Of a DNA stretch of 8,804 nt, positions 1 to 8,804 are shown one piece after another (within the stretch, counting starts at the first letter, position 1; every line of letters begins with the position of its first letter). This stretch comes from Pseudomonadota bacterium (lineage in GTDB: Bacteria > Pseudomonadota > Gammaproteobacteria > Burkholderiales > Burkholderiaceae). Where the stretch lies: assembly GCA_963205525.1 (NCBI GenBank), contig CAUJJP010000107.1, forward strand, positions 1 to 8,804, written 5' to 3'. The position numbers were made by a program, and so were the translations under genes. A model generated the notes under the pieces. That model was not told the origin of the DNA, searched no databases, and worked only from the letters and a program-made list of their open reading frames with translations.

Positions 1-695
1 CGCTGGGCCTCGCTGATCACGGGCGTGAAGTCCTGCGAGCTCAGCGGGTAGCCGCCGTCGTAGACGATGTTGAAGTTGGCCGCCTTGAGCGCCTTGCGCG
101 CCGCGTTGGCCAGCTCGATGCCGAACTGCTCGGTGGCGTGGGCGATGGCCACGCGGTCGTTGATCTGACCGGCCGCGCGCGCCTGGCTGAGCACCGCCAC
201 CAGCGCCTCGGCATAGGTGCTCGAGGTATTCAACAGCGAGAACACGTTGGGCCAGCGCTTGACGATCTCGGCCGTGCGGTCGCTGGCCATGCTGGGCGCC
301 ATCATCGGGTAGCCGGCGCGCGCGAAGATGGGCGCCACCGCCAGGTTCTGCCCGGTGCCCCAGGGCGGCAGCAGGATGTCGACCTTGTCCTGGCTGATCA
401 GGCGCTCGACCGCACGCACCGCCTCCTCGGACTGGCTGCGGTCGTCGTACTCGATGTGCTCGAGCTTGAGCTTGCGCCCGTCCACGCTGAGGCCACCGGC
501 GTCGTTGGTGTCCTTGATCCACAGCAGATAGTTCGGCCACTGGGTGGCGGCCGCACCGCCGGCGAAGGGGCCGGTCTTGGAGATCGCCCAGCCGACCTTG
601 ATCGAGCTGCGCTGGGCGCTCACCCAGCCGGGCGCGGCCAGGGCCGCTGCACCGAGGGTGCCGATGACCGTGCGTCGTGAAACTTGCTGGCTCAT
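1..695 (-). CDS. ABC transporter substrate-binding protein, branched-chain amino acid/aromatic acid type (3' end missing)
   Basis: This is the first 231 codons of a periplasmic binding protein; the C-terminal part lies beyond the left edge (family members are about 400 residues). The N terminus MSQQVSRRTVIG carries a twin-arginine-like motif (Arg7-Arg8). A hydrophobic stretch and a VSA|Q cleavage site near residue 27 follow, so export by Tat or Sec is likely. The mature start KVGWAISKTGPFAGG and the later LLPPWGTGQ, FARAGYPMMAPS and ATEQFGIELA stretches are typical of LivJ-like (periplasmic binding fold type I) proteins. The ATG at 695 is preceded by a good Shine-Dalgarno GGAGA. Such proteins beside aromatic catabolic operons often bind aromatic acids for uptake. 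Here that role is inferred from position only, and the ligand cannot be read from the sequence. No permease or ATPase gene is visible in the window. Confidence 0.88.
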   Translation of the reverse strand, partial: MSQQVSRRTVIGTLGAAALAAPGWVSAQRSSIKVGWAISKTGPFAGGAAATQWPNYLLWIKDTNDAGGLSVDGRKLKLEHIEYDDRSQSEEAVRAVERLISQDKVDILLPPWGTGQNLAVAPIFARAGYPMMAPSMASDRTAEIVKRWPNVFSLLNTSSTYAEALVAVLSQARAAGQINDRVAIAHATEQFGIELANAARKALKAANFNIVYDGGYPLSSQDFTPVISEAQ

Positions 696-839: not shown

Positions 840-2291
840 TCAGAACGGGTAGTGCGCCGGCGTGGTCTGCAGCGTCACCCAGCGCAGCTCGGTGAATTCC
901 TCGATCCCGGCGCGGCCGCCGAAACGGCCCCAGCCGCTGTGCTTCATGCCGCCGAATGGCATCTGCGCCTCGTCCTGCACGGTGGCGGAGTTGACGTGGC
1001 AGATGCCGGCATCGATGCGCCGCGCCACCGCCAGGGCGCGGTTCACGTCGCGCCCGAAGACGGCCGAGGACAGGCCGTACTCGTTGTCGTTGGCCACCGT
1101 CACCGCCTCGTCCACCGAGCGCACGCGCACCACCGCCACCAGCGGGCCGAAGGACTCCTCGCGGTAGATGCGCATCGCCGGCGTCACGTGGTCCAGCAGC
1201 GCCGGCTGCATGATGGTGCCCTCGATCTCGCCGCCGGCGACCAGCGTCGCGCCCTTGGCCAGCGCATCGTCGATCAGCCCGCGCACGCGCTCGGCGGCCT
1301 CGCGCCCGACCATGGCGCCGAGCACGCAGCCTTCGGTACCGGGCACGCCGGCGCGCAGCGAGCCCGCCTTGCGGCCCAGACGCTCGACGAACTCGTCGGC
1401 CACCGCCTCGTCCACCACCACGCGCACGGTGCTCATGCTGATCTGGCCCTGGTTCATGTTGGCGCCGATGGCCGCCGCCGCCACCGCCTCGTCGAGGTCG
1501 GCGTCGTCCAGCACCAGCATGGGCGCCTTGCCGCCGAGCTCCAGCAGCGCGCGCTTGAGGTGGCGTGCGCAGGCCTGGGCGACCAGCCGGCCCACACGCG
1601 TGGAACCGGTGAAGTTGACGCGCCGCACCGCCGGGTGGGCGATCAGCGCCTCGACCACGGTGGCGGCGTCGGCCGGCGCATTGCTGACGACGTTGATGAC
1701 GCCCGGCGGCAGACCGGCGCTGCGCAGCGCGTCGGCGATCAGCCAGTGCGTGCGCGGGCAGATCTCGCTGGACTTGAGCACCACCGTGTTGCCGCAGGCC
1801 AGCGGGGCGGCGATGGCGCGCGTGCCCAGGATCACCGGTGCGTTCCACGGCGCGATGCCCAGCACCACGCCGGCCGGCTGGCGCAGCCCCATCGCCAGCA
1901 GACCGGGCTTGTCCGAAGGAATCACCTCGCCGCCGATCTGCGTCACCAGCGCAGCGGCCTCGCGCAGCATGCCGGCGGCGAGCTGGCAGTTGAAGCCGGC
2001 CCACATCGGCGCGGCACCGGTCTCGGCGGCCATGGCCTTGACGAACTCGGGCGTGCGTGCGGCGAGCGCGTCCGCGGCCTGGTTGAGCAGGGCACGGCGG
2101 TCCTTGGGCGGCAGCGCAGACCAGGCGGGGAAGGCGGCGGCGGCGGCATCGGCGGCGGCCACCGCATCGGCCACGCTGGCGGCGGCGGCCCGGGTGGCCA
2201 CCTCGCCGCGCACCGGGTCCAGGCGTTCGAAGACACGGCCGTCGCTGGCCGCGCAGTCTCGGTCGCCGATCAGGAGTTTGACGTCAGGCAT
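840..2291 (-). CDS. Aldehyde dehydrogenase family protein (salicylaldehyde/vanillin dehydrogenase-like) with Ser at the catalytic Cys position
   Basis: This 483-residue protein is of normal length for the ALDH superfamily. It has the Rossmann-domain signatures PWN (Asn150), VLKSSE (Lys173) and FTGS (227-230), the ELGGK motif with the general-base Glu251, and EESFGP (378-383). The catalytic nucleophile expected in GQIC is absent: residues 282-286 read GQISM, with Ser285 encoded by AGC at 1439-1437. Ser285 is exactly 34 residues after Glu251, the same spacing as Glu268 to Cys302 in ALDH2, so the alignment is secure. By overall resemblance the family oxidises aromatic aldehydes to acids with NAD(P)+, which would feed the protocatechuate pathway. 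With serine here, normal dehydrogenase activity is doubtful. The start at 2291 (MPDVKLLIGD) fits the family; a longer reading from a TTG at 2375 does not. It lies about 150 nt after the reductase gene. Confidence 0.9.
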   Translation of the reverse strand: MPDVKLLIGDRDCAASDGRVFERLDPVRGEVATRAAAASVADAVAAADAAAAAFPAWSALPPKDRRALLNQAADALAARTPEFVKAMAAETGAAPMWAGFNCQLAAGMLREAAALVTQIGGEVIPSDKPGLLAMGLRQPAGVVLGIAPWNAPVILGTRAIAAPLACGNTVVLKSSEICPRTHWLIADALRSAGLPPGVINVVSNAPADAATVVEALIAHPAVRRVNFTGSTRVGRLVAQACARHLKRALLELGGKAPMLVLDDADLDEAVAAAAIGANMNQGQISMSTVRVVVDEAVADEFVERLGRKAGSLRAGVPGTEGCVLGAMVGREAAERVRGLIDDALAKGATLVAGGEIEGTIMQPALLDHVTPAMRIYREESFGPLVAVVRVRSVDEAVTVANDNEYGLSSAVFGRDVNRALAVARRIDAGICHVNSATVQDEAQMPFGGMKHSGWGRFGGRAGIEEFTELRWVTLQTTPAHYPF

Positions 2292-2444: not shown

Positions 2445-3545
2445 CTATGAGCGCCCCCAGGACCGGGCTGCGCCCAGCCCACCCCCCGCGGGGGTCAAGG
2501 AAACTTGGGACGGCCCGGCGTTTCCTTGAGAGCTCCAGGGGCAGGGCTCGGTATCGACCTCGCCCTGCGCAGCAAGCGCGTAGCGATTGCCGAGCACCGC
2601 CGCCGGGCGGATGAGCTCGCCGGCGCGGTCCAGCACCGCCTGCGGCAGCGCCAGATCCAGCGCCGCCATGTTCTCGCGCAGGTGCTCGATCCGGGTCGTG
2701 CCGGGAATGGCGACCAGCTGGGGCGTGCGCGCCAGCAGCCAGGCCAGCGCCAGTTGCCCCGGGGTGCAGCCGGCCTCGGCTGCCAGCGCTTCGTAGGCCG
2801 GCAGCAGGGCGGCGTTGTGCGCCCAGGCCTCGGGCGCGAAGCGCGGCATCTGGCGGCGGATGTCGCCGGCGTCCAGCGTCGACGGGTCGCGCAGGCGACC
2901 GGTGAGGAAGCCGCGCGCCAGCGGGCTGAAGGCGACGAAGCTGGCGCCGATCTCGCGGCAGGCATCGAGCACGGCGATCTCCGGGTTGCGCGTCCACAGC
3001 GAGTACTCGGTCTGCACGGCGGCGATGGGGTGCACCGCGTGGGCGCGACGCAGCGTCTGCGCCGAGACCTCGGACAGGCCGATCGCGCGCAGCTTGCCCT
3101 GATCGACCAGGCGCGCCAGCTCGGCCACCGATTCCTCCACCGGCAGCCGCTTGTCCCAGCGGTGCAGGTAGTACAGGTCGATGTGGTCGGTGCCCAGGCG
3201 CCTGAGGCTGTCCTCGCAGTGGCGCCGGATCGCCTGCCGGCTGCCGTCGATGACGCGGCGCATCACGCCGTCCGCACCCGTCTGCCCCGCCATGCCGCCT
3301 TTGCTGGCGAGCAGCACGCGCGAGCGCTGCCCGGCCAGCACGCGCCCGACCAGGGTCTCGTTGGCGCCGAAGCCGTACAGCGCCGCGGTGTCGAAGTGGT
3401 CCACCCCCAGGTCCAGCGCCTGCCTGAGCAGCCGCTCGGCATCGGCCGGCGCGGGCGGCTGGCCATAGGCGTGGCTGAGGTTCATGCAGCCCAGGCCGAT
3501 CGGCCGGACGGTGAAGGGGCCCAGGCGGCGCGCCGGTAAGGCCAT
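2445..3545 (-). CDS. Aldo/keto reductase with an unusual C-terminal tail
   Basis: This is a 366-residue TIM-barrel aldo/keto reductase, expected to reduce aldehydes or ketones with NADPH in the cytoplasm. The catalytic tetrad is complete: Asp52 (FDTA), Tyr57 (LYG), Lys82 (ASKGG) and His128 (YYLHR). GLGCMNLSHAYG near residues 17-28, FSPLARGFLTGR (206-217) and AIPGTT (279-284) are family signatures. The normal domain appears to end around residue 335. Residues 340-366 are translated from a block of three inverted repeats and look non-homologous. The start chosen is the ATG at 3545, 5 nt after the ligC stop codon. A GTG at 3554 would overlap the ligC stop as GTGA and is an alternative. Position at the end of the protocatechuate operon suggests an aromatic or pathway aldehyde as substrate, but the substrate is unknown. 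Confidence 0.88.
   Translation of the reverse strand: MALPARRLGPFTVRPIGLGCMNLSHAYGQPPAPADAERLLRQALDLGVDHFDTAALYGFGANETLVGRVLAGQRSRVLLASKGGMAGQTGADGVMRRVIDGSRQAIRRHCEDSLRRLGTDHIDLYYLHRWDKRLPVEESVAELARLVDQGKLRAIGLSEVSAQTLRRAHAVHPIAAVQTEYSLWTRNPEIAVLDACREIGASFVAFSPLARGFLTGRLRDPSTLDAGDIRRQMPRFAPEAWAHNAALLPAYEALAAEAGCTPGQLALAWLLARTPQLVAIPGTTRIEHLRENMAALDLALPQAVLDRAGELIRPAAVLGNRYALAAQGEVDTEPCPWSSQGNAGPSQVSLTPAGGGLGAARSWGRS
2465..2529. repeat. Cluster of three adjacent inverted repeats at the 3' end of the aldo/keto reductase gene
   Basis: Three hairpin-forming palindromes lie end to end. The first is GGGCTG (2465-2470) with CAGCCC (2475-2480), a 6-bp stem with a 4-nt loop. The second is ACCCCC (2481-2486) with GGGGGT (2490-2495), a 6-bp stem with a 3-nt loop. 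The third is TCAAGGAAAC (2495-2504) with GTTTCCTTGA (2520-2529), perfect 10-bp arms with a 15-nt loop. The block marks the end of the catabolic operon and could act as a transcription terminator or mRNA-stabilising structure. It also looks like the dispersed intergenic palindromic elements of GC-rich betaproteobacteria. No T-tract follows on the minus strand. Reading frame through the block remains open until the TAG at 2447-2445. Confidence 0.7.
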
Positions 3546-3550
3546 GACGC

Positions 3551-5889
<2,339 letters not shown>

Positions 5890-6816
5890 TCACAGTTCTT
5901 CGGGCCAGTACAGGCGCATCGGGTTGTCCACCAGCAGCCGGCGCTGCAGCTCGGGGGTGGGCGCGATGTGCTCAATGAAGTCCACCAGCAGGCCGTCGTC
6001 GGGCATGTGGTCCTTCAGGTTGGGGTGCGGCCAGTCGGTGCCCCACAGCACGCGGTCGGGAAAGCTCTCCACCACCCGGCGCGCAAAGGGCACGACGTCG
6101 CGGTAGGCGGCCTGCTCGCCGGCCAGCGCGCGCGGCCCGGTGACCGACAGCCGCTCCGGACAGCTGACCTTGCTCCAGACCTTGGCGTGCTCGCGCATGA
6201 ACTTCAGAAAGAGCGCGAACTCGGGCCCGTCCACCGGCTTGGACACGTCGGGGCGGCCCATGTGGTCGACCACCACGGTGGTCGCCAAATCGCCAGCGAT
6301 GGTGCTGAATAAGTCCCACAGCTCGGGCAGGTCCACGGCCTCGAAGTAGATCACCACGTGCCAGCCCAGCGGCCGGATGCGCGCCGCGATCTCGAGCAGC
6401 TCGTCCCTGGGCGTGAAGTCCACCAGCCGCTTGACGAAATTGAAGCGCACGCCGCGCACGCCGGCGGCGTGCAGCGCCTGCAGCTCGGCATCGCTGACGC
6501 TGCGCCGCACGGTGGCCACGCCGCGCGCGCGTCCGCCGCTGGCGATGCAGGCGTCGACCATCGCCCGGTTGTCGGCGCCGTGGCAGGTGGCCTGCACGAT
6601 CACGTTGCGCGCGAAGCCCAGGTGGTCACGCAGCGCAAAGAGCTGCGCCTTGCCGGCGTCGCAGGGGGTGTACTTGCGCTCGGGGGCGAACGGGAACTCG
6701 GCGCCGGGGCCGAAGACGTGGCAGTGTGCGTCCACGCTGCCGGGAGGCAGCACGAAGCGCGGCTTGCTCGGGCCGGCATACCAGTCCAGCCAGCCGGGGG
6801 TCTTCTCGAAGCTCAT
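5890..6816 (-). CDS. ligI: 2-pyrone-4,6-dicarboxylate (PDC) hydrolase, LigI/PmdD
   Basis: This 308-residue amidohydrolase-superfamily enzyme hydrolyses the lactone PDC to 4-oxalomesaconate/4-carboxy-2-hydroxymuconate, the step after CHMS dehydrogenase. Landmarks agree with LigI: the HxH pair His31 and His33 in VDAHCHVFGPG, His185 in VVDHMGRPD, and the catalytic Asp261 in LWGTDWPHPN (LigI His31, His33, His180 and Asp248). LigI is known to work without a divalent metal. The ATG at 6816 overlaps the stop of the upstream oxidoreductase as ATGA (6813-6816). The start lacks a strong Shine-Dalgarno sequence, so it probably depends on translational coupling. Alternative longer readings on this strand run into the oxidoreductase gene in another frame and were discarded. 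Confidence 0.95.
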   Translation of the reverse strand: MSFEKTPGWLDWYAGPSKPRFVLPPGSVDAHCHVFGPGAEFPFAPERKYTPCDAGKAQLFALRDHLGFARNVIVQATCHGADNRAMVDACIASGGRARGVATVRRSVSDAELQALHAAGVRGVRFNFVKRLVDFTPRDELLEIAARIRPLGWHVVIYFEAVDLPELWDLFSTIAGDLATTVVVDHMGRPDVSKPVDGPEFALFLKFMREHAKVWSKVSCPERLSVTGPRALAGEQAAYRDVVPFARRVVESFPDRVLWGTDWPHPNLKDHMPDDGLLVDFIEHIAPTPELQRRLLVDNPMRLYWPEEL

Positions 6817-7817
6817 GCGTGGTCTGCTCGTCGAACGGGGGGAATGGTCGGCACCGCAGCCGCAGGTGTGCGGTCGCCCTGCACAGCCGCAGGTGTGCGG
6901 TCGGCCCGCACAGCCGCCAGGATGCGGTCGGCCTCCATGCGCCAGTCCGCGCTGCGCGCGAAGCCGGATGTGCCGCGGGCGCCGAAGCAGCCGGCGTCGG
7001 CGAGGTCGGCCACCCAGGCCTGGCGCTCGGCGGTGCCGGCGGCGCTCCAGGGTTCGAGGCCGGCCTCGCGCACGGTGGCGGCGACTTCGCGCACTTCCTC
7101 GGCGCGCCTGCGGCCGTGCTCGATCACGCGCTGGAAGAAGTAGCTCGCCTGCTTCTCCCAGTCGATGCCGGGGAAGGTCTCCTGCAGGCTGGCGATCAGC
7201 GCGTCCTCCACCCCGTAGTGGCGGGCGGCGCTGAAGCTCTCGATGACCATGGCCTCCAGGCCCTTGATCATGACGCTGCGGCACATCTTGGTCGCACTCG
7301 CCACGCCCAGCCGCGCGTCGTGCACGCGGGCCGCGAAGCCGATCGCGTTCAAGGGCTGCAGCAGCTGCACGGCGTGCGGTCCGCCCAGCAGCAGCGGCAC
7401 CCGGCTGCGGTAGGGCGGTACCGAGGTCATGACCGCGCCTTCGACGTAGCGCGCGCCGGCGCCGTCGACGATCTGCGCGGCGCGCTGCTTGGCTCCCGGC
7501 GAGGCGCTGTTCAGGTCGAGGAAGAAGCTGCCCGCGCCCAGTCCGGCGGCACAGGCCTGCGCCACCGGCACCGCCTGGCTGGCGGTGACCGCAGAGATGA
7601 CGAGATCCGCGCCGCGCACCGCCAGCGCGTGTGCCGGCTGCAAGGTCACGCCGTGCTGCTGCGCGTGCGCCCGCAGGGATGCGGCGGCGTCGCCAATGCC
7701 GTCGCCGTTGCCGCCGAACTTGAGGTCGCAGGCGCTGACGGCCAGCCCCTGCGCGCGCAAGTCCTCGGCCAGGATGCGGCCGACCTCGCCGTAGCCGATC
7801 AGGGTGATCGCCTGCAT
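6813..7817 (-). CDS. NAD(P)-dependent oxidoreductase, 6-phosphogluconate dehydrogenase-like with DUF1932-type C-terminal domain
   Basis: This 334-residue protein has a Rossmann N-terminal domain with GYGEVG at residues 9-13 region (LIGYGEVGRIL, 6-16), LVISAVTASQAV (72-83) and DLNSASPGAK (101-110), as in beta-hydroxyacid dehydrogenases. It also has a helical C-terminal domain with SATKMCRSVMIKG (174-186), where Lys177 is the likely catalytic lysine. This arrangement fits the group annotated as NAD(P)-dependent oxidoreductase with DUF1932. The start ATG at 7817 directly precedes the dinucleotide fold and lies 7 nt after the ligK stop. A longer reading from 7937 would add 40 residues from within ligK and is not credible. 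It is not a known step of the 4,5-cleavage pathway, so its substrate is unknown. Its last 38 residues form a repetitive DRxPAAV-type tail that looks like an extension by tandem duplication. Confidence 0.85.
   Translation of the reverse strand: MQAITLIGYGEVGRILAEDLRAQGLAVSACDLKFGGNGDGIGDAAASLRAHAQQHGVTLQPAHALAVRGADLVISAVTASQAVPVAQACAAGLGAGSFFLDLNSASPGAKQRAAQIVDGAGARYVEGAVMTSVPPYRSRVPLLLGGPHAVQLLQPLNAIGFAARVHDARLGVASATKMCRSVMIKGLEAMVIESFSAARHYGVEDALIASLQETFPGIDWEKQASYFFQRVIEHGRRRAEEVREVAATVREAGLEPWSAAGTAERQAWVADLADAGCFGARGTSGFARSADWRMEADRILAAVRADRTPAAVQGDRTPAAAVPTIPPVRRADHA
6857..6930 (-). repeat. 27-bp in-frame tandem repeat, three copies, in the 3' end of the oxidoreductase gene
   Basis: Three units of 27 bp start at 6857, 6884 and 6911. 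The first two are identical over 20 bp and differ at 2 of 27 positions; the third matches the core at 16 of 20 positions. In protein they read DRILAAVRA (297-305), DRTPAAVQG (306-314) and DRTPAAAVP (315-323). The first corresponds to the natural end of the protein and the others look like duplicated copies. The first two DNA units each contain a small hairpin, CCGCA-GGTG-TGCGG (6860-6873 and 6887-6900), 44 to 84 nt upstream of the ligI start. Confidence 0.85.
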
Positions 7818-7824
7818 CGCCGCG

Positions 7825-8508
7825 TCAATCGACGTAGCGCAGCCCGGCCTGGGCCAGCGGCTCGCGCATCTTGTACATGTCCAGCCCCAGCACGCCGGAC
7901 GCCAGCTTGGCGCGCTTCTCGCCCTCCAGCGCCTCACGCTTGGCGGCGGCGTCGAGCGCGGCCTGCGCCATCGCCTGCGGCACGCAGACGACGCCGTCGT
8001 CGTCGGCCACGATGACGTCGCCCGGCGTCACCCAGGCCCCGGCGCAGACGAGCGGGATGTTCACCGACCCGAGGGTGGCTTTGATCGTGCCCTTGGCGCT
8101 GATCGCCTTGCTCCAGACCGGGAAGCCCATCTGCTGCAGCGTCCTCACGTCGCGCACGCCGGCGTCTATGACCAGCGCGCGCGCGCCGCGCGCCTGGAAG
8201 CTGGTGGCCAGGAGGTCACCGAAGTAGCCGTCGCTGCACTCGGCGGTGACGGCGGCGACGACGATGTCGCCGGGCTGGATCTGCTCGGCCGCCACGTGCA
8301 GCATCCAGTTGTCGCCCGGCTGCAGCAGCACCGTCACCGCGCAGCCGGCAACCTGGGCGCCGGGGTAGATCGGCCGCATGTAGGGCTTGAGCAGGCCGAC
8401 GCGGCCCATCGCCTCGTGCACGGTGGCGCTGCCGAAGTGCGCGAGCTGGTCCGCCAGGTGCAGCGGCGTGCGGCTGATCCTGCGGTGGACGACCCCGAGT
8501 TCGTACAT
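7825..8508 (-). CDS. ligK: 4-carboxy-4-hydroxy-2-oxoadipate (CHA) aldolase / oxaloacetate decarboxylase, LigK/PmdF
   Basis: This 227-residue class II (divalent metal-dependent) aldolase of the RraA-like/HMG aldolase fold is full length. It splits CHA to pyruvate and oxaloacetate, the last step of the protocatechuate 4,5-cleavage pathway, and family members also decarboxylate oxaloacetate. Diagnostic features are the N-terminal [23 protein letters not shown] (30-40), GDNWMLHVA (65-73), [10 protein letters not shown] (94-103) and DAGVRDV (115-121). Arg119-Asp120 of that last motif are the catalytic arginine and metal-binding aspartate by family comparison. The ATG at 8508 lies 1 nt after the TGA of the hydratase gene, with AAAGGGG upstream as a probable ribosome binding site inside that gene. 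The order hydratase-aldolase matches pmdE-pmdF of Comamonas. Confidence 0.95.
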
Positions 8509-8509
8509 C

Positions 8510-8804
8510 TCACAACCCCTTTCTCTTCAATGCGGCGTCCAGCCGCGGGTAGACACGCCGCGCGTTGCCTTCATAGATCTGCTGCTTCTGCGCCGCACTG
8601 AGCTGGGTGCTGGCCTCGATGTAGCGCCGGGTGTCGTCGTAGGGGTGGCCCGTCTCGGGGTCGATGCCGCGCACGGCGCCGATCATCTCGCTGGCGAACA
8701 GGATGTTGTCCACCGGGATCACGCGGGTGAGCAGGTCGATGCCCGGCTGGTGGTAGACGCAGGTGTCGAAGAACACGTTGCCCAGCAGGTGGTCCTTGAG
8801 CAGC
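8510..8804 (-). CDS. ligJ: 4-oxalomesaconate hydratase, LigJ/PmdE (5' part missing)
   Basis: Only the last 97 codons plus the stop are present; the gene continues past the right edge. The fragment contains [44 protein letters not shown] and [13 protein letters not shown], all strongly reminiscent of LigJ, a zinc-dependent amidohydrolase-superfamily hydratase of about 340 residues. The glutamate in FASEM probably corresponds to the catalytic Glu284 of Sphingobium LigJ, judged from distance to the C terminus. LigJ hydrates 4-oxalomesaconate (its keto tautomer) to CHA, the substrate of the aldolase encoded 1 nt downstream. A GTG at 8776 gives an apparent short reading frame, but the homologous sequence continues upstream to the window edge (LLKDHLLGN), so it is an internal valine codon, not the start. 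Confidence 0.93.

Follow-up and report, generated by a model that had tools for sequence, protein, structure and literature searches.

The aldehyde dehydrogenase (ALDH) gene at positions 840..2291 (minus strand) of the 8,804-nucleotide stretch of DNA analysed here (the window) reads serine at the codon of the catalytic nucleophile (codon 285, AGC, 1437..1439, minus strand), a position held by cysteine in 181 of 181 homologues. This serine belongs to a cluster of four departures from nearly fixed columns within 15 codons, namely F275I, Y278N, C285S and E289V, all of them exchanges between A and T, which together occupy a 44-nt patch (1426..1469, minus strand) recognized by comparison with relatives. 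The pattern is beyond chance, and because so odd a patch surrounds the codon, the base call at codon 285 is itself doubtful. We think it probable that the serine codon is a technical artefact within this patch and does not represent a fixed trait of the organism; judged from sequence, a novel type of enzyme is less likely than a local error or a one-off patch of mutations.

The aldehyde dehydrogenase and its 44-nt patch

The open reading frame runs from an ATG at 2291 to a stop at 840-842 and is uninterrupted across all 483 codons. Its product matches PF00171 (Aldedh) over the full length of the profile (485.5 bits against a cut-off of 23; positions 4-461 of 461), and is nearer in sequence to the solved structures 6QHN (601.6 bits), 9IHB (581.9 bits) and 4JZ6 (542 bits) than to other solved ALDHs (next chain, 315.2 bits), which places it in the salicylaldehyde/vanillin dehydrogenase group; 6QHN and 4JZ6 were also top-ranked when the predicted model was used in a fold search. 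Functionally, the equivalents of Glu251, Asn150 and Lys173 in ALDHs serve as general base, oxyanion residue and NAD-binding residue, and replacing the nucleophilic cysteine by serine is expected to nearly abolish dehydrogenase activity. Homologue alignment and codon readout show that Glu251 (GAG, 1539..1541, minus strand) is kept, as are Asn150, Lys173 and the ESFGP motif (379-383), and that the cysteine of GQ-x-C is the residue missing from this record, the motif reading NQGQ-I-S-M-S with Ser285 placed 34 residues after Glu251. Catalytic roles for Asn and Glu are given in PMC5324060, in which Cys284 is described as the nucleophile and as the most highly conserved residue across 2039 sequences. 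The first-pass annotation had reported the serine, the spacing of 34, the retained residues and motif and the open 483-codon frame, all of which we confirmed, but it missed the three accompanying changes.

Each change in the patch is a single base (three T to A, one A to T; coding nucleotides 823 to 866), lying at 1469 for F275I, 1460 for Y278N, 1439 for C285S and 1426 for E289V. Codon 275 (ATC, Ile, 1467..1469, minus strand) is Phe in 181/181 homologues, codon 278 (AAC, Asn, 1458..1460, minus strand) is Phe or Tyr in 180/181 with one Cys, and codon 289 (GTG, Val, 1425..1427, minus strand) is acidic in all 181 (165 Glu, 16 Asp). These three columns are less fixed in a wider tblastn set that includes remoter ALDHs (Phe275 in 65/69, Phe or Tyr278 in 66/69, Glu289 in 61/69), and even there the window's Ile, Asn and Val are absent from the corresponding sites.

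Counting as window-private any nucleotide position at which five relatives (L001-L005) all agree but the window differs, we found 22 such sites in the ALDH gene, of which exactly the four patch sites, and none of the other 18, are A↔T changes. When the labels were permuted, so that any four of the 22 could be the A↔T sites, a span this short arose in 0.15% of trials (p = 0.0015), and when four changes were scattered randomly over the 293 conserved A/T sites it arose in 0.006% (p = 6e-5). Among the private sites of the five relatives themselves, A↔T changes number 4/200 (L001 0/25, L002 1/44, L003 2/65, L004 0/18, L005 1/48), and among window-private sites of the other eight genes 13/330, a count that draws on 3-5 matching rows per gene, some from one genome, after rows below 60% identity were dropped. 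The kind of base exchange and the kind of residue change are linked, since F to I, Y to N and E to V are reached in a single step only via A↔T; the A↔T argument is thus partly circular, and the label permutation alone is modest.

The closest relative identified is the orthologue of Rubrivivax sp. SJ498 (L004, whose protein is identical to P0001), which is 94% identical, differing at 31 of 483 residues. Compared with it, the gene outside codons 275-291 has a dN/dS of 0.086, and within those codons there are five nonsynonymous and one synonymous differences, a ratio of 1.27; the same codons carry no nonsynonymous difference between L004 and L001. We also asked which strongly conserved columns the window breaks, at a column threshold of at least 97%. 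Across 74 related sequences of at least 60% identity (lower ones were dropped) the ALDH has 155 such columns, and the window breaks only three, 275, 285 and 289, whereas the neighbouring LigC-like gene breaks 0/171 and the fused LigAB gene 2/214, both mildly (K61R and A83S, each column conserved in 53/54). Outside the patch, then, the sequence comparisons indicate that the ALDH is under strong purifying selection, with no decay. Gene decay was ruled out by this low dN/dS together with the open frame, and a generally poor contig by the clean or nearly clean state of the two neighbours tested.

Two structure models, built from 30-sequence alignments, are unsure at the catalytic loop: over residues 271-280 the mean confidence (pLDDT) was 58 in the window protein against 75 in P0001, and over residues 281-290 it was 57 against 62. 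The same two models diverge elsewhere as well, at residues 121-130 and 131-140 (62 and 72 vs 39 and 48). A comparison of strand folding gave no clear signal of a difference between the window and L004.

Searches for relatives that share the serine

The first-pass annotation had proposed asking whether orthologues share the serine, and they do not: every relative examined has cysteine, including the one that is 94% identical. A protein search of 5.8 billion sequences, from which the best 120 of 8000 scored were taken, gave Cys at column 285 in 120/120. A second search, ranked by similarity over residues 250-325 (again the best 120 of 8000 scored), added 61 proteins for a total of 181 distinct homologues, and in these combined best-match sets Cys285 and Phe275 occur in 181/181, Tyr or Phe278 in 180/181 and Glu or Asp289 in 181/181, with Ile275, Ser285 and Val289 in none. 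Because the protein database groups sequences at 90% identity, a protein identical to that of the window could sit inside a cluster such as that of P0001. In genomic DNA, all 69 segments that tblastn matched at E <= 1e-20, drawn from 57 genome loci, encode Cys. A serine-carrying clade was thereby ruled out among the 181 best-match homologues and the 69 segments from 57 loci.

More narrowly aimed searches gave nothing further. An initial region search with residues 266-305 returned 177 candidates, none with E <= 0.001, and a DNA-pattern search for the serine motif, restricted to AGY serine codons, matched 0/369 and 0/299 genomes, where the cysteine control itself matched just 2/299, so that this search carries little power. 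One protein, P0121, was considered as a serine relative and rejected: its top score in the second search (162 bits vs 123 for the next) reflects a duplication of the region, and each copy carries Cys. The duplicated stretch of P0121, in tandem, matches ALDH residues 194-376 and is possibly an assembly product. Several homologues from several sources (P0061, P0066-P0068, P0078 and P0100) were seen to combine an ALDH of this group with an ABC-transporter ATPase domain in one chain (PF00171 + PF00005, about 730 aa).

Searches of mobile DNA suggest that neither the gene nor the patch has a close copy in the plasmid and phage sequences covered. Plasmid DNA matched the whole ALDH gene at 70.8-74.9% identity among the 20 matches listed, and a tally of 648 plasmid records against the whole gene placed one at 90-95% and 78 at 80-90%, outside those 20; the 141 bases around the patch were matched at 77-80% identity among the eight matches listed. 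Phage DNA gave no match at megablast sensitivity. A search of the literature, covering few subscription journals, yielded no case of a Cys-to-Ser or serine-nucleophile ALDH and no C302S variant; the phrase 'lacks the catalytic cysteine' led to one article that, judged by its title, concerns the ubiquitin-proteasome system and was set aside.

Known systems and competing explanations

Among known systems, the closest solved relative by both sequence and fold is SALDAP (6QHN), which shares the NQGQI-x-MST motif frame but differs in having a cysteine nucleophile (Cys272, PMC12718228) and the family Phe and Glu in the loop. The second and third solved relatives, vanillin dehydrogenase (9IHB) and NahF (4JZ6), match over nearly the full length and likewise differ in their cysteine nucleophile, which is assigned by alignment in 9IHB and is Cys284 in NahF (PMC12718228). 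The Rubrivivax sp. SJ498 orthologue keeps Phe275, Tyr278, Cys285 and Glu289. The pseudoenzyme ALDH16A1 shares with the window protein an ALDH fold from which the catalytic Cys is missing; however, it lacks the entire catalytic triad, as stated in PMC10650815, whereas the window ALDH keeps Glu and Asn, and its loss is private among the relatives examined. Of Cys, Glu and Asn only Cys is missing here, unlike the lineage-wide loss of catalytic residues that characterizes proteins of the ALDH16A1 kind.

We posit that the patch probably arose from four neighbouring A↔T miscalls, or from a variant that a minority of reads carried and that entered the consensus, in an apparently environmental contig; both the technical cause and the environmental origin are what we infer. 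The underlying gene would most likely encode an ordinary NAD-dependent aromatic ALDH that belongs to the salicylaldehyde/vanillin group and uses cysteine as its nucleophile. This enzyme would convert aromatic aldehydes to acids, for example protocatechuate, which the adjoining 4,5-ring-cleavage enzymes would then take up; such substrates are suggested by its family and by its neighbourhood on this one contig. Decay would not leave the damage confined to 44 nt, and for an adapted enzyme one would expect relatives or intermediate forms, of which none was found; this leaves either a technical error of local extent or one recent mutation event. A private, all-A↔T patch in an otherwise constrained gene would fit either of these better than an enzyme evolved or lost along a lineage. 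Between the two we prefer the technical cause, since no special event has to be invoked and low-coverage environmental contigs are presumably prone to such errors. Against an error stand the parts of the contig that were tested, which are free of signs of poor quality (intact frames, clean neighbours), the ALDH frame, which is still open, and the position of the patch on the catalytic loop, which is where one would look for a change of function. Four miscalls in a single read would normally be dropped by the assembler unless coverage were very low.

If the patch is not an error, a real and very recent local event in this strain, such as a mutation shower or a template switch, might have left a dead or nearly dead dehydrogenase in an otherwise undecayed gene. 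A single event would leave just such a tight cluster of one substitution type, and serine in place of cysteine would be expected to remove dehydrogenase activity by the general mechanism of the family (Cys284 as nucleophile, PMC5324060). Such an event must be recent because the rest of the gene is intact, and that same lack of decay tells against it, as does the want of a template: nothing resembling one occurs in the window, where there are only two 11-mer matches, and beyond it an exact 45-base scan of viral contigs (viral_contigs) gave zero matches. We regard a mutation event as unlikely. A further reading takes the changes as adaptive, the protein having become a non-catalytic ALDH that binds NAD and an aromatic ligand, for example as a sensor or carrier of protocatechuate or of an aldehyde. 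Such a binder would agree with the retention of Asn150, Lys173 and Glu251, with the placing of all four changes on the catalytic loop and with the existence of pseudoenzyme ALDHs such as ALDH16A1 (PMC10650815), and it becomes at least concrete beside protocatechuate genes because the refined structure of SALDAP holds protocatechuic acid in the active site (PMC8996149). It is nonetheless improbable, with Ile275, Ser285 and Val289 in 0/181 homologues, a 94% relative that keeps Cys and the loop, and a gene that shows no new domain or other change pointing to a new function. An enzyme with a true serine nucleophile, performing ester hydrolysis or other acyl-transfer chemistry, could use the retained Glu251 and Asn150 to activate the hydroxyl and to hold the oxyanion; yet serine occurs at column 285 in no relative examined, no published case emerged from the literature search described above, and the loss of Glu289 and of the aromatics at 275 and 278 would be unlike a built serine site, which makes this the least credible reading, and a very improbable one.

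Thus, although the residue, spacing and motifs described in the first-pass annotation stand, its readings of inactivation, serine chemistry or non-catalytic binding find little support, and sequencing error was among the options that it listed. Were the changes both real and fixed in a population, the protein would be an ALDH fold with a remodelled catalytic loop, a non-oxidising binder of NAD and of protocatechuate or an aldehyde, and hence a newborn pseudoenzyme, an outcome that we consider quite improbable. If true, it would offer a very young pseudoenzyme whose protein sequence lies within 6% of a form that resembles the parent and bears Cys, with a close relative ready for comparison. Active-site losses seen in a single record are best judged by whether the surrounding changes are odd as well; here the lost Cys is accompanied by three further departures from near-fixed residues in 44 bases, so a claim for a new enzyme should await the reads.

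The protocatechuate gene neighbourhood

All genes of the window lie on the minus strand, and in reading order they encode an amidohydrolase (cut), LigK, a DUF1932 protein, an amidohydrolase, a fused dioxygenase, a LigC-like dehydrogenase, an aldo/keto reductase, the ALDH and a substrate-binding protein (cut). The first amidohydrolase (8510..8803, PF04909 at 50 bits), presumably LigJ, is represented by its end and cut by the window end; it is followed by the 4-carboxy-4-hydroxy-2-oxoadipate aldolase LigK (7825..8508; TIGR02798, 409 bits against a cut-off of 304.5), an NAD-binding/DUF1932 protein (6813..7820; PF03446 + PF09130) and a second amidohydrolase (5890..6816; PF04909), which we take to be LigI. 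The fused protocatechuate 4,5-dioxygenase alpha/beta (LigA-LigB, 4498..5868) matches PF07746, PF02900 and TIGR02792 above their cut-offs, and NF009912 at 760 bits, under its cut-off of 837; together with LigK it identifies a protocatechuate 4,5-cleavage cluster, curated cut-offs being passed by LigK and by the alpha subunit of the dioxygenase. A Gfo/Idh/MocA dehydrogenase (3551..4501; PF01408 + PF19858), for which we assume the name LigC, and an aldo/keto reductase (2445..3545; PF00248, 248.6 bits for 2517-3545, the start at 3545 being a choice) precede the ALDH, and the start of a periplasmic substrate-binding protein gene (3..695; Peripla_BP_6), cut by the other window end, follows it.

A relative of the substrate-binding protein also follows the ALDH in L001-L005, at 46-93% identity, the highest value being that of Rubrivivax sp. 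SJ498 (L004), and no relatives of LigAB, LigC or LigK were found in the stretches of ALDH flank covered for L001, L002, L003 and L005. In the L004 genome one contig carries the ALDH and another the ring-cleavage genes, and both break off at the junction, which makes adjacency possible. Since the linkage was unseen in relatives, a role of the ALDH in making protocatechuate is something we infer from its family and from this contig. Across L001-L005 and L098-L101, the ALDH with its downstream substrate-binding gene and the protocatechuate set appear as separate blocks, whose junction was observed only in the window.

Two further features of the neighbourhood were observed. LigA and LigB are fused in a frame of 456 codons; among relatives, some matches run through both parts with the frame open, and in others a stop intervenes. 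A 27-bp repeat in 2.9 copies (TRF score 119) lies at 6857-6934, at the 3' end of the DUF1932 gene, and gives its product a repeated RTPAAV-type C-terminus.
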